This document shows positions 9,148 through 26,962 of a stretch of 31,030 nucleotides of DNA, one piece after another; within the stretch, counting starts at the first letter, position 1; each line of letters starts with the position of its first letter. The notes under the pieces are model-generated. The model made no database searches, was not told the origin of the DNA, and saw only the letters and a program-made list of their open reading frames with translations. A program made the translations under genes and the position numbers. The stretch comes from Candidatus Hermodarchaeota archaeon (lineage in GTDB: Archaea; Asgardarchaeota; Hermodarchaeia; Hermodarchaeales; Hermodarchaeaceae). The stretch is taken from the NCBI GenBank assembly GCA_016840185.1, contig JAEOSV010000249.1, forward strand, positions 1-31,030, written 5' to 3'.

Positions 9148-9705
9148 GTGAGAAGTAACGTCTTCACGATGATTTACTCTCACAACATCGAAAACACGAG
9201 GAACACTACATTGAGCATCCTTTCCCCCGATGAACAAATCGTGTGGCAACGGTTTCATCACGGGATGTCAACAAGCACGATAGCAAAAGCAGCACCCAAA
9301 AAGAGGTGGTCTGTTGCTTACGTCTCACGCGTGTTGAACCGAGCCCGGGGAAAAATTGCTAAAGCACTGCAAGAACAGGCGAAAAGTCATCGTCTGGATG
9401 TGGAAAGCCTGTTAAATTATAATGGTCTTCTGATCGGATTTGATTACCAAGCAAATACAGTAGTCTATGTCATCTTTACGGTGAAACTCGGAATCATCGT
9501 GTGGTACAAGCATGCCTCATATGCGGGGATGCTGTGCCATAATTGTCCAAAACTAAAGGAGTGTCGAGAAACTCTTGACACCATAATTTCTGAGTATGAC
9601 ATCAAGCTGCGACCCGATGAAGAAGTGCTGCCGATGACACAGCAGTCTTCGGCGATTTTTAACAAGCTGGCAGCGAAAGAAATTCCTCGGTATCAACGGA
9701 GTTGA
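9148..9705 (+). CDS. Tfx-like HTH transcriptional regulator with Cys cluster
   Basis: A 185-residue protein. Residues ~26-75 (LSPDEQIVWQRFHHGMSTSTIAKA...WSVAYVSRVLNRARGKIAKAL) form a helix-turn-helix of the sigma-region-4/Tfx type known from archaeal regulators. The C-terminal part has a beta-rich segment (GLLIGFDYQANTVVYVIFTVKLGIIVWY) and then C-x2-C-x5-C (Cys130, 133, 139), which may bind a metal or sense redox state. A TATA box 27 bases upstream argues for a leaderless GTG start; Met8 is an alternative. Its stop overlaps the next gene by 4 bases, so they share an operon. The perfect inverted repeat at its own start suggests autoregulation, with a partner site at the divergent peptidase gene. 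Target and signal are inferred. Confidence 0.65.
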   Translation: MRSNVFTMIYSHNIENTRNTTLSILSPDEQIVWQRFHHGMSTSTIAKAAPKKRWSVAYVSRVLNRARGKIAKALQEQAKSHRLDVESLLNYNGLLIGFDYQANTVVYVIFTVKLGIIVWYKHASYAGMLCHNCPKLKECRETLDTIISEYDIKLRPDEEVLPMTQQSSAIFNKLAAKEIPRYQRS

Positions 9706-22766: not shown

Positions 22767-23618
22767 TTATGAGTATTCGTGAAATCCTTTACCGGATTTC
22801 ATACCGAGTTCGCCTTTTTCCACTTTTTCCAACAGCAACTTTGGAGTTTTATAACATTCACCATAACCTTCATAGAGGGTGGTTGCAGTGGCAGCAGCGA
22901 TATCTAATCCGACAAAGTCTGCAAGGGTGAGGGGACCAACAGGATGATTCGCGCCTAGTTGCATTGCAGTATCGATATCTTCAGCGGTAGCAAGACCTTC
23001 TTGAAAAATCTTAATCGCTTCACCCATGAGGGCTCCAAGAATACGGTTAACGATGAAGCCTGGTGAATCTTTCACTTTCACCGGTGTTTTATCGAGTTTC
23101 TTACTGAAAGCAATCGCGGTTTCAATCGTATCTTCAGATGTTTTATCTCCAACAACAATTTCAACTAATTTCATGGCTGGAACAGGATTGAAGAAATGTA
23201 TACCGACTACTTTGTCAGCACGTTTGGTTACAGTAGCCATTTCGGAGACACTGAGGCTGGACGTATTGGTAGCGAAGATGGTATCAGACCGGGAGGCAGC
23301 CTCCATTTTTGTAAAGAGCTCTTTTTTGGCTTTCATATTCTCATAGATGGCTTCGACGACCATATCGACGTCTTTGACGGCTTCTGCAACGTCGAGAACA
23401 GGTTTAATGCCGTCGACAATTCCTTTCGCAGCTTTGAGATCGATTTTACTTTTGTCGACACCAGTTTTGACCATGGATTTGATTTTGTTCATGCCGTTGG
23501 CGATGAATTCTTGCTTAAGGTCGTTGAGGTTGACTTCGATGCCGAATCGGGCGGCTTGGTAGGCGATACCTGTGCCCATGGCGCCAGCGCCGATGACAGC
23601 TATTCGTTTGATTTCCAT
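22767..23618 (-). CDS. 3-hydroxyacyl-CoA dehydrogenase (3-hydroxybutyryl-CoA dehydrogenase type)
   Basis: A 283-residue enzyme, the standard length for single-domain 3-hydroxybutyryl-CoA dehydrogenases. The NAD(P)-binding motif is GAGAMGTGIA (10-19). The catalytic His141 is in VGIHFFNPVPAMKLVEIV with Glu153, and Ser120 lies in TNTSSLSVSE. The C-terminal NHPVGPLTLADFVGLD and GKGFHEYS are typical. It interconverts 3-hydroxyacyl-CoA and 3-ketoacyl-CoA. The frame extends 26 codons upstream, but AAGGTGA six bases before the ATG at 23618 fixes the start. It heads a run hydratase-thiolase-DUF35, so together they make the hydration, oxidation and thiolysis steps. No acyl-CoA dehydrogenase or CoA ligase is visible here. 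Confidence 0.93.
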   Translation of the reverse strand: MEIKRIAVIGAGAMGTGIAYQAARFGIEVNLNDLKQEFIANGMNKIKSMVKTGVDKSKIDLKAAKGIVDGIKPVLDVAEAVKDVDMVVEAIYENMKAKKELFTKMEAASRSDTIFATNTSSLSVSEMATVTKRADKVVGIHFFNPVPAMKLVEIVVGDKTSEDTIETAIAFSKKLDKTPVKVKDSPGFIVNRILGALMGEAIKIFQEGLATAEDIDTAMQLGANHPVGPLTLADFVGLDIAAATATTLYEGYGECYKTPKLLLEKVEKGELGMKSGKGFHEYS

Positions 23619-23637
23619 TTTTTTCACCTTAATGGTA

Positions 23638-23659
23638 TTCAACAATGAAGTTTGTTCAA
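23638..23659. promoter_or_regulatory. Near-palindrome in the hydroxyacyl-CoA dehydrogenase leader
   Basis: TTCAACAA and TTGTTCAA are near-perfect arms (one mismatch) with a 6-base spacer, just upstream of the ribosome-binding site. TATA-like ACTTATAG on the minus strand lies about 35-40 bases further upstream near 23692-23700. This is a weak candidate operator. Confidence 0.3.
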
Positions 23660-23753
23660 TTGTGTATGCGGAGCTTGAAGGTCTATTAAAATTCAACTAT
23701 AAGTCGAAAAACGACGAGTAAAGACCACATGAAAAACATGACATAGAAGAAAA

Positions 23754-25127
23754 TTAGAGGAGTTCTTGGGTGCGAATCCTTCGGAGTTGGAGTTTGAGTC
23801 GTACGAACTTACGATCATATTCGGCTTCGGTAATGCTCCCGGAGCTAAGAGCGGATTCGAGTTGTTGGAGTTCTTCGTCCAGTTGTGCTTCGTTGCTGGA
23901 AACGATGCGTTCCACGGATTCAGTTGGCGAGGGGGCTGGTAAAGTTGTTTCCACTGCAATGGGTGTTGGTGCCATGGGTGCAGGTAGTTCTTTAGGCTCT
24001 TCTAGGGTTATCGGTTCTGGTTGGGGTCGAGTGGGAATCACTGGTTCTAGTGGTGGCTCTTCTTTGACTTTCTTCTTACGGGGGGTTTTTGCAGACTTTT
24101 TCGCTTGCTTCGCTGGTTTTGCGAGGAGAAATTCAAGTTCTGAAATTAGCGCTGGGTTGAGTACGTATTTCTTGAGGATGGTGATTCCGGCGTTTTCGGG
24201 TTCGGTAATATTGTGACAGGAGTGGCAGACGAAGATCATTTGGGGGTGTTTGAATGATGAGTTGCACTGGGGGCATTGGTAACCACGAAAAATGCGGAAT
24301 TCATGTTCATCTTTGGTGCGGATACCACAGCGATTGCAGTAGATTTCCTTTTCATCGGTGATTCTGACACTGATCGTTCCACAAGTAAGATGTTCGAAGA
24401 GTTCAACTGGTTGAGCAGAGGTCTGACATCCGGGACAAAGGATATGGGGATGGAGATGAAGAGAATTACATTTGGGACAGGCTAGTGAACTATCGGTAGG
24501 TTCTGAGAGGAGGGTGCCAAAATCAGCGAGACGCTCGAGGAGTATCATGGCTTCCTCGTCATCAAGTCCAGTAAGAGATGAAGCTAAGGGATATGAGTAA
24601 CCAATTTGGGTAGTAGCTAGCTCAGGGACTAGTTCAGCCTGTTGCCGTGACAGTAGTGCCTGTACGAGGGTTCGAGCTTCCTCCTCTCGAAGAATCGCCA
24701 GTTCAGATAAATCGGAAGGCGCTTTACGGGTCGCAAATCGGTCCAGTTCAGTGGTAATCACTTCAAGCAGTTGTTTCCGGAATTCTATGGTGACGGCTTT
24801 GAAACCGTTGGGTTCCCGGTGCATTTGAGCCAACACGGGATCGACTTTAGCTTCGATGTTAACGAAAAACTGATCATACCGAGCATCAGGGTCACGAGCT
24901 CCCACGGCAAGCACTTTCATTAAGACACGTCCGCGTCGAATGAGGAGCTTGAAGTTGCCCATTGCGATGGAGCTGAGTTTGCCACCTGAGGTTTCTGCTG
25001 CGAAGTCGTGACTTGCAGCGATGAATCCTGAGAACAGATCAGGATTAAAGGAAAATCCCGGAACGGTGATATGAGAGAGGAGCAGTCCACTATTTGCATC
25101 GATCAGCCAGATGCCGTAAAGTACCAT
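23754..25127 (-). CDS. Longin/roadblock-like plus TackOD1-like zinc domain plus SHOCT-like tail
   Basis: A 457-residue multidomain protein. Residues ~1-100 (MVLYGIWLIDANSGLLLSHI...FIAASHDFAAE...SIAMGNFKLLIRR) have the alternating strand-helix pattern of longin/roadblock-like domains, common in Asgard archaea and linked to small-GTPase and trafficking functions in eukaryotes. Residues ~165-330 match the TackOD1 output domain in layout: a winged-helix-like start (YPLASSLTGLDDEEAMILLERLADFGTLL), then Cys pairs at 217/220, 231/234, 264/267, 285/288 and 301/304 with His246 and Cys249. Residues ~335-410 are Lys- then Pro-rich and disordered. The last ~45 residues (LDEELQQLESALSSGSITEAEYDRKF) resemble a SHOCT-type helical hairpin. 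Neighbours are acyl-CoA genes, but it has its own 190-base upstream region. Domain calls are by pattern only. Confidence 0.65.
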   Translation of the reverse strand: MVLYGIWLIDANSGLLLSHITVPGFSFNPDLFSGFIAASHDFAAETSGGKLSSIAMGNFKLLIRRGRVLMKVLAVGARDPDARYDQFFVNIEAKVDPVLAQMHREPNGFKAVTIEFRKQLLEVITTELDRFATRKAPSDLSELAILREEEARTLVQALLSRQQAELVPELATTQIGYSYPLASSLTGLDDEEAMILLERLADFGTLLSEPTDSSLACPKCNSLHLHPHILCPGCQTSAQPVELFEHLTCGTISVRITDEKEIYCNRCGIRTKDEHEFRIFRGYQCPQCNSSFKHPQMIFVCHSCHNITEPENAGITILKKYVLNPALISELEFLLAKPAKQAKKSAKTPRKKKVKEEPPLEPVIPTRPQPEPITLEEPKELPAPMAPTPIAVETTLPAPSPTESVERIVSSNEAQLDEELQQLESALSSGSITEAEYDRKFVRLKLQLRRIRTQELL

Positions 25128-25317: not shown

Positions 25318-26130
25318 CTAGATTTGACAATGGCGACAGAAATTCGCTACCCGCAATCCAGATTTCACGGACGAAATCGTCGTCCCACATACGGGACAAG
25401 TTCCACCGCCCTTTCCATGCACTTGAAGGAAGTCACGAACCTCAAATTGAAGTGTACTACCAACTCGAGCACTGATTATTGAAATGGCGTTTTCCAACAC
25501 TGATTTCGTGCAACTAAACAAAGCATCGATTTCAGCATCAGTTAACGAGGACCGCTTACGAAATGGGAGAACCTGCGCTGCAAACAAAATCTCATCAGCG
25601 TACGCATTCCCGAGTCCAGCAATGAAGCGCTGATTGACCAACACATGTTTGATGACAGCATTAAACTGCCTAATTCGATGGCGAAACACGTCCATCTTCA
25701 AGGCGGGATCGAGGGCATCAGGACCCTGCTCGTCATATTTTGGAATCAACGAGGTGGACTCCTCTTTCAGCAGCAAATAGAATTTCCCCATTTGTCGAGA
25801 ATCAATATAACGCAAATCTGATCCCGTATCGAGCTTGAATCGGAATCCCATGGTCTTTTGCTTTGCAGTGGAGGGTGACTGAAATTTCAGCCGACCTGCC
25901 AGCATGAAGTTGATGTATAATTTCGCTTCTGACTCAAACTGGAAGATGAGGTATTTGCCATACCGGTGAACCGTGTTGAACGAGCGGTTTTGCACTTCTT
26001 TGACGAAAGCTTCGGCTGTGGGTCGACGGAGGAGAATTGGGTTGCCGATTTCTGCTTCCTCAATGGTCTGACCGGGTAGTGTCCAGGTGAGGACTGATTT
26101 TACCACTTCGAGATCTGGTAGCTCTGGCAC
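25318..26130 (-). CDS. fpg: Fpg/MutM-family DNA glycosylase (formamidopyrimidine-DNA glycosylase)
   Basis: A 270-residue protein of normal Fpg length (E. coli 269). The N-terminal PELPDLE supplies Pro2 (the Schiff-base nucleophile) and Glu3. Lys59 lies in HRYGKYLIF, Asn175 in FIAGLGNAYADEILF within the helix-two-turn-helix, and the zinc finger has CPVC (245/248) and CRHC (265/268) with Arg260 in GLRVANFC. It would excise oxidised purines such as 8-oxoguanine and cleave the strand. Fpg is mainly bacterial, with oxidised purines in many archaea handled by Ogg-type enzymes, so transfer from bacteria is plausible. GTG at 26130 (GGAG four bases upstream) is the start. It lies 37 bases after the YhfC-like gene and is probably cotranscribed. 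Confidence 0.93.
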   Translation of the reverse strand: MPELPDLEVVKSVLTWTLPGQTIEEAEIGNPILLRRPTAEAFVKEVQNRSFNTVHRYGKYLIFQFESEAKLYINFMLAGRLKFQSPSTAKQKTMGFRFKLDTGSDLRYIDSRQMGKFYLLLKEESTSLIPKYDEQGPDALDPALKMDVFRHRIRQFNAVIKHVLVNQRFIAGLGNAYADEILFAAQVLPFRKRSSLTDAEIDALFSCTKSVLENAISIISARVGSTLQFEVRDFLQVHGKGGGTCPVCGTTISSVKSGLRVANFCRHCQI

Positions 26131-26167: not shown

Positions 26168-26962
26168 TTATGTGGGTTTTGTCTCCGGCGCGGGTTCTTT
26201 CTCAATCTTAGGGGGTCCACCTTCTCGTTTAAAGAGCCAGTATGTCAAAACCAAGAAGATGATGGCGAAGATTGCGAAGAGGCATTCGCCGATGATTCCT
26301 CCAATGAATGATCCCAAGAGCGGATAGAGAATGTATTGTAAGAGCATGATGGGAATATAGTCAAACAGGAAGTGTGCGAGTATCGCCATCAATGCATAGA
26401 GGGGTTTGCTATGCCATATGGCTAATGCTACAAGAATGGTGGCAGTCACATGGAAGACAATGGCGATATTTCGTTCAAGTGCACCAAGTAGGAAACTAAA
26501 GACCAGATAGGATTCCGGTGGTAATGTAATGATGGTAATTAGCCATTCGTAGAGAAATCCGTAGGTCAGTACTGTAAGGACATAAAGAAGAAGAGCCTCA
26601 CAGAGCCCCCAACCAAGACCGAAACATAGGGCATGCTTCATTGTTTTGATAAAGGATGGATATTTTTTCAGAAATCCATATTTGATACCTTCTTCAAATA
26701 AGCCCGCCATGAACGCGCCCATGAAGATTATGATTGCTACATAGATTGCATAGAATGCTGGTGAGATAGTTAGCCCCCAGAACTCAAGGACGAGGAGAAT
26801 GGGTGTTCTAGCTAGGAGGGCGAGAAACCAGAAGAGACCACCAATGAAGGCGGATAACCACATGCTGCCTTTGAACCGGGCGATATACAGGAAGAGGAGA
26901 AACGCAGGTAAGACGGCGATGAGACTTCCGACAATTGCTACGATAATGAGAAACAGACTCAT
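26168..26962 (-). CDS. YhfC/PrsW-like putative intramembrane protease
   Basis: A 264-residue polytopic membrane protein with about seven helices and a charged, Pro-rich tail. Conserved polar residues sit inside helices: Glu90-Glu91 (LFEEGIKYGFLKK), Glu122 (GWGLCEALLL), Glu163, His171 (ERNIAIVFHVTA), and His197 with Asp201 (LAHFLFDYIP). The EE...E...H...H-D pattern is that of the YhfC family, related to the CPBP/PrsW group of putative intramembrane metallo- or glutamic peptidases. AGGTG lies about eight bases before the ATG. The substrate is unknown. It is upstream of fpg on the same strand and divergent from the S-adenosylhomocysteinase gene. Confidence 0.7.
   Translation of the reverse strand: MSLFLIIVAIVGSLIAVLPAFLLFLYIARFKGSMWLSAFIGGLFWFLALLARTPILLVLEFWGLTISPAFYAIYVAIIIFMGAFMAGLFEEGIKYGFLKKYPSFIKTMKHALCFGLGWGLCEALLLYVLTVLTYGFLYEWLITIITLPPESYLVFSFLLGALERNIAIVFHVTATILVALAIWHSKPLYALMAILAHFLFDYIPIMLLQYILYPLLGSFIGGIIGECLFAIFAIIFLVLTYWLFKREGGPPKIEKEPAPETKPT

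Follow-up and report, generated by a model that had tools for sequence, protein, structure and literature searches.

TackOD1 (PF18551, thaumarchaeal output domain 1; arCOG06883) received its name in 2018, as an output domain whose function was obscure (PMC5847659). The architectures given in the parts of PMC5847659 that deal with this domain are TackOD1 alone, REC-TackOD1 and REC-wHTH-TackOD1. Its cysteine pattern was described there as five CxxC motifs and one HxxC motif, and the TackOD1 section compares the domain with double zinc ribbons and PriA. The words longin and GTPase are absent from the main text of that paper. Longins have already been described in Asgard archaea, and sections of PMC10933270 and PMC4917890 include longin/roadblock-longin and longin-GTPase proteins among them. 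The stretch analyzed in this study comprises 31,030 nucleotides of the Candidatus Hermodarchaeota contig JAEOSV010000249.1 and is referred to as the window. It encodes a protein of 457 amino acids (aa) that differs from both groups. Compared with the published TackOD1 architectures, it possesses a eukaryote-like longin domain before TackOD1 and a linker and a hairpin after it; compared with the described Asgard longin proteins, it carries TackOD1 as its output part in place of a GTPase, roadblock or TRAPPC3 domain. No description of a longin-TackOD1 protein was found in the open-licence PMC literature. Because the genes of some relatives with the same zinc domain adjoin Ras-like genes, the best-supported reading is that this protein is probably an adaptor that acts in the cytosol, in a small-GTPase pathway of Asgard archaea, a reading that we hold at about even confidence.

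The gene and its parts are given below, where alignment A1 consists of 32 of the 49 proteins from a protein search, with the query included.

23754..25127, minus strand: whole gene, 457 aa, longin, TackOD1, Pro-rich linker and helical hairpin (open reading frame (ORF) and translation)
24723..25127, minus strand: longin domain, residues 1-135
24480..24716, minus strand: predicted winged-helix core (helices and first wing strand), residues 138-216
24165..24689, minus strand: TackOD1 Pfam match, residues 147-321 (E 2.5e-21, 76.5 bits, cut-off 32)
24189..24479, minus strand: zinc-ribbon insert in the wing, residues 217-313, with 11 invariant Cys (A1, CxxC/HxxC pattern; zinc binding predicted)
24123..24188, minus strand: predicted second wing strand and closing helix, residues 314-335 (model and VIA alignment)
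23916..24122, minus strand: disordered Pro-rich linker, residues 336-404 (69 residues; predicted local distance difference test (pLDDT) below 50 at 339-407; variable in A1)
23757..23915, minus strand: SHOCT/GvpG-like helical hairpin, residues 405-457 (helices 405-428 and 434-456 in the model)

The coordinates and the domain order given in a previous sequence-only reading of this DNA were correct; the strand, which it did not state, is the minus strand of the 457-codon ORF. The protein search with the window protein returned 49 rows, including the query, with identities down to 44%, so the protein belongs to a conserved family and is not a chance ORF. The few rows with NCBI names were from metagenome-assembled Asgard genomes labelled Promethearchaeota, Hermodarchaeia, Thorarchaeota and 'Odinarchaeota'. 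The identities between the window protein and its relatives at loci L001-L005 ranged from 67 to 83%. These loci are GTDB genome contigs; the titles of four read Hermodarchaeota/Hermodarchaeum, and that of the fifth is 'archaeon isolate H03M_Hermod_104'. At least 5 of 227 Asgard genomes encode the full window-type protein, and three of these are the Hermodarchaeal genomes behind L001, L004, and L005. As these genome searches scored the best candidates per genome (at most 13 for TackOD1 and at most 7 for the window-type protein), absences are soft. The predicted structure of the window protein had a mean pLDDT of 76.7 and a predicted template modelling score of 0.43, so the relative placing of the domains is not predicted. 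When PDB was searched by sequence with the whole protein or its alignment, no match was convincing (best E 0.38 and 0.34).

The score of the TackOD1 match was above the Pfam gathering cut-off, and all 32 members of A1 also matched TackOD1 (E <= 5, best 1.6e-24). Cysteine residues at positions 217, 220, 231, 234, 249, 264, 267, 285, 288, 301, and 304 were invariant in all 32 rows of A1. Similar to the published pattern, they form five CxxC motifs and one HxxC motif (H246-C249). Thus, the eleven paired cysteines in TackOD1-like order that had been noticed before were borne out by A1, by the motif pattern and by the Pfam score, and the Pfam check for an unrelated zinc ribbon family in this region left the TackOD1 interpretation in place. 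The region is predicted to bind zinc. Different from the double zinc ribbons and PriA of the published comparison, the modelled TackOD1 of the window protein takes the form of a winged helix, with the zinc ribbons inserted in the wing. In the model, the helical core, wing hairpin and closing helix of an ArsR/MarR-like winged helix were all present, with a strand at model residues 205-214 and a helix at 216-227. This reading is based on VIA-align, whose aligned ranges extend to model residue 229, and on the predicted model; Foldseek with TackOD1 alone gave no rows at E <= 0.001.

Such a fold raises the question of DNA binding. If the protein were a transcription regulator, TackOD1 would bind DNA or the basal transcription machinery and the longin would serve as a sensor or dimerization unit. 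We consider this fairly unlikely. TFE-alpha is a winged helix with a zinc ribbon and would be the model for this mode of action; it was listed by Foldseek for TackOD1 at a weak E of 0.76. The ArsR/MarR-like model and the fusion of Asgard TackOD1 to Lrp/AsnC DNA-binding domains in L006 also favor it, as does the fusion of TackOD1 to REC in other archaea described in part of PMC5847659. However, the recognition-helix position was negative in 29 of the 34 TackOD1 sequences of alignment A2 (34 of 38 TackOD1 fragments), with a net charge of -5 in the window protein, whose whole winged helix has a net charge of -11. The basic recognition helix of a DNA-binding regulator was thus not found, although charge alone does not exclude DNA binding. 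Moreover, the fusion in L006 supplies its own basic helix-turn-helix (HTH), and no regulator-like gene context was seen. The acidic recognition-helix position suggests docking to a protein partner, and not the reading of DNA, as the task of TackOD1.

The predicted topology of the N-terminal domain is b1b2a1b3b4b5a2a3 with an extra C-terminal helix and without an N-terminal helix, which corresponds to the longin fold as described in part of PMC10933270. The domain had been proposed to be of longin/roadblock type. Its predicted topology supports the longin half of this proposal, and the Roadblock/LC7 assignment was rejected because no N-terminal helix before b1b2 was found in the predicted structure. 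The structure prediction for residues 1-100 did not place them in another fold. The remark that longins serve GTPase and trafficking roles in eukaryotes is valid for eukaryotes and leaves out the Asgard longins cited above. Roadblock/LC7 is related to NitrOD3, another REC-associated domain, according to part of PMC5847659; roadblock-type modules thus occur next to archaeal response regulators.

At the sequence level, no curated longin Pfam family was among the protein's 13 matches at E <= 10 or among the best 25 of the 68 families matched by the 32 members of A1. Fuz_longin_1 was reached one step away, through relative L052 (27.5 bits, cut-off 26.1). The N-domain profile was built without the partial P0048. 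When A4, which contains the window domain and its Asgard relatives, was compared with PDB, 10 of the first 13 rows were longins by molecule name (VAMP7, AP sigma, and MON1), at E of only 0.027-0.24. The window protein shares the longin fold with FUZ/MON1/HPS1-CCZ1 and with Trs23/Bet5 of TRAPP, but these eukaryotic proteins lack TackOD1. FUZ/MON1/HPS1-CCZ1 and the TRAPP longin regulators are multi-longin or multi-subunit. The SNARE longins Sec22b and VAMP7 were among the best structural matches of the N-terminal model. A structural or trafficking longin that works without a GTPase, like those of SNAREs, adaptors or the signal recognition particle receptor, with TackOD1 as a metal-stabilized scaffold, would fit these matches and a gene that is not beside GTPase genes. 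This is improbable, as SNARE families were absent from the 13 Pfam matches, TackOD1 relatives are linked to GTPases, and a relative of the window longin is fused to an Arf-like GTPase.

Other members of the longin family were also observed. In L058 (790-1176 and 1648-2199), a stand-alone member of the window longin family and a gene for a Ras-family GTPase share a strand and are separated by about 470 nt. L057:947-2773 encodes a longin fused to repeats with a match to MIT (E 4.2e-7), a domain that binds ESCRT-III in eukaryotes.

TackOD1 was found above its cut-off in at least 56 of the 227 Asgard genomes. Its other architectures included TackOD1-Lrp/AsnC (L006), TackOD1-Mrr nuclease-like (L017), HHH-TackOD1-Mrr (L020, HHH sub-threshold), hairpin-TackOD1 (L025), and a second type of N-terminal domain of about 110 residues followed by TackOD1. 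Some of these genes were associated with GTPase genes. Of the 8 genomes that were searched, 7 contained an orthologue of paralogue H3 with at least 47% identity. Each of these seven genes is tail-to-tail with a gene of the Ras family across a gap of 4-15 nt. When an H3-type member was used as the query of a protein search, all 40 rows returned had TackOD1. A Ras gene follows a second-type TackOD1 gene, with both on one strand, in G081, where the two overlap in ATGA, and in G083, after a gap of 4 nt. In G173 and G174, hairpin-TackOD1 is the gene that follows, and it overlaps the preceding Ras gene in TAATG. In G077 and G078, a gene for a Ras-type GTPase, whose N-terminal part is longin-like by eye, is about 460 nt from TackOD1-Lrp. 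Overall, a GTPase gene was in the flanks, of at most 1.5 kb, at 8 of 36 distinct TackOD1 places, which are the best matches whose loci were returned and not all TackOD1 genes. Given that ten Asgard genomes checked contained 20-67 Ras-family matches each, we estimated a chance rate of about 4% per place. The identities between the GTPases of different linked groups were 25-47%.

Additional features accompany some of these genes. The Mrr-type restriction-endonuclease-like domain is fused to TackOD1 in L017 and L020, and L023 is similar by reading alone. Beside the TackOD1-GTPase pair of G083, L087:5946-9985 encodes three GTPases, two with Gtr1_RagA and one with Arf as best Pfam match, and a small unmatched protein with a longin/roadblock look by eye.

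If the protein is an adaptor of a small-GTPase pathway, the longin would be the platform that contacts a Ras/Arf-like GTPase, alone or as a dimer, and TackOD1 would dock a protein partner as the output. The flexible linker would tether the SHOCT-like hairpin, which probably adds another contact. The computation supports the domain make-up, the predicted longin and winged-helix folds, the conservation, and the GTPase linkage of some other TackOD1 proteins. We infer that the window protein binds a GTPase, and likewise its partners and direction of signaling, as guanine nucleotide exchange factor, GTPase-activating protein or effector.

Membership in the window longin family was rejected for the N-terminal domains of TackOD1 proteins of the Thor, Loki-like, H2, and H3 types, as it was not supported by hhalign; by sequence they appear to form a second family of unproven fold. 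The match of this second family to the domain at the N-terminus of the Arf fusions L086/L087 was not significant (3.2%). Thor-type loci, probed with the genes of L075, all contained within about 5 kb a TackOD1 gene, a gene for methylene-tetrahydromethanopterin (H4MPT) dehydrogenase, one for an HHH-containing membrane-type protein, and a longin gene whose winged-helix matches were sub-threshold (9 of 9, L075 included). A second longin gene was nearly full length in four of the nine loci, and a MinD-like gene was found in four. The Thor longin domains matched the wider family of the window longin at 99.1-99.2%. Thus, the window protein may be a fusion of parts that Thor genomes keep as neighbouring genes. 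A broader possibility, which we regard as rather unlikely, is that TackOD1 is the output arm of an unrecognized Asgard module made of a small Ras/Arf-like GTPase, a longin and a zinc-ribbon winged helix, exchangeable and either fused or adjacent, of which the window protein would be the single-chain longin-plus-output form.

Proteins with a longin and a winged helix recur in Asgard genomes (L052, L054-L056, L070, and L071), and N-domain matches in frames of about 240-260 aa were found in many of G093-G157, of which four were read (L054, L055, L056, and L071). Two Thor proteins of 425-436 aa (L076:11426-12703 and L075:1615-2925) have a longin-like N-terminus and a winged-helix-like C-terminus, all with sub-threshold Pfam matches. 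They adjoin a MinD/ParA-like ATPase gene and possibly have an archaeal NPRL-like architecture; HTH_NPRL3 matched the L076 protein at E 0.015 (15.7 bits, cut-off 27.2). NPRL2/NPRL3 of GATOR1, which comprise a longin and winged helices according to part of PMC5681675, share with the window protein the order of fold types, longin then winged helix; sequence homology was not found. NPRL2/3 homology of the window protein was rejected, as the sole match was weak and in a different Thor protein.

Several results weigh against the adaptor reading. The window-type gene had no GTPase neighbour in any of six loci (the window and L001-L005) in a scan with GTPase hidden Markov models, which were themselves built partly from the linked genes. 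The single-chain adaptor from GTPase to zinc-domain output suggested by the sequence-only reading is supported indirectly, by other TackOD1 genes beside Ras-family genes and by the Arf fusion of a longin relative, and not by the surroundings of its own gene. No GTPase neighbour was found at the Thor-type loci (0 of 9) or for H2 (0 of 3), where two of the loci are at short contig ends. About 1.9 kb and one ORF separate the second-type gene of G079 from its GTPase gene (L091), and the 6.7-kb contig with the second-type gene of G078 has no GTPase gene (L090). The linked loci are not independent, forming about four groups; the linkage across groups may be an old shared one, and the binomial P of 0.002 rests on a guessed 15 groups and the guessed 4%. 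Moreover, the N-terminal domain of the GTPase-linked paralogues belongs to a different sequence family (hhalign gave 0.8% with the Hermod profile and, with the wider longin family, a full-length match of 16% at E 0.0016 that was not significant), and the Thor longins matched the window profile directly at only 56.5% and 92.3%. Finally, not every longin regulates a GTPase; SNAREs are among the exceptions according to part of PMC10933270.

The Pro-rich linker recognized earlier was seen as a disordered stretch in the predicted structure. Similar to SHOCT (PF09851), the tail of the window protein is a C-terminal two-helix hairpin in the model, as the proposed SHOCT-like tail implied. The family match did not hold: SHOCT scored 16.7 bits against a curated cut-off of 27, for which membership was rejected, and GvpG scored slightly higher (19.1, cut-off 30.6). 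At E <= 5, SHOCT matched 26 and GvpG all of the 32 members of A1. Oligomerization by SHOCT is not supported by published experiment, according to part of PMC3581485. The N-terminal hairpin (residues ~10-55) of the proteins in L025 and L028, whose genes are directly downstream of a Ras GTPase gene, resembles this tail; GvpG matched that of L025 at E 0.03.

The genes next to the longin-TackOD1 gene are as follows.

25318..26130, minus strand: Fpg/Nei-type DNA glycosylase, upstream neighbour (Pfam Fapy_DNA_glyco, E 1.8e-24)
22767..23696, minus strand: 3-hydroxyacyl-coenzyme A (CoA) dehydrogenase, downstream neighbour (Pfam 3HCDH_N, E 1.5e-60)

Enoyl-CoA hydratase, thiolase and ChsH2-type genes were also found downstream in the window by Pfam. 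By eye, Fpg is upstream in L001, L003, L004, and L005, while the contig of L002 starts just upstream of the gene, and the dehydrogenase is downstream in all five loci. This order, kept in the window, L001, L003, L004, and L005, could point to a role in DNA repair with Fpg or in the CoA-thioester cluster next to the gene. Such a role is very unlikely: the synteny is known from close relatives, in which gene order can be inherited, the gap to the Fpg gene is 190 nt, and no domain fits either pathway. A YhfC-type intramembrane metalloprotease gene is upstream of Fpg (window 26168-26962, E 1.4e-13), an order kept in L001, L004, and L005 by reading. A 185-aa ORF at window 9148-9705 has an HTH-like stretch by eye and no Pfam match at E 1e-5.

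Small GTPases number in the dozens in Asgard genomes, and their regulators are not easily inferred from gene order; in MK-D1, GTPase genes are generally not in operons with roadblock, longin or TRAPPC3 genes, as reported in part of PMC10933270. A domain that recurs directly beside GTPase genes and has a predicted winged-helix/zinc fold provides named GTPase-partner pairs for testing, and the finding bears on the wiring of GTPase control before eukaryotes. If the three-part module is true, the order of longin and winged helix would be an archaeal counterpart, and perhaps a forerunner, of the NPRL2/NPRL3-type nutrient-sensing GTPase regulators.
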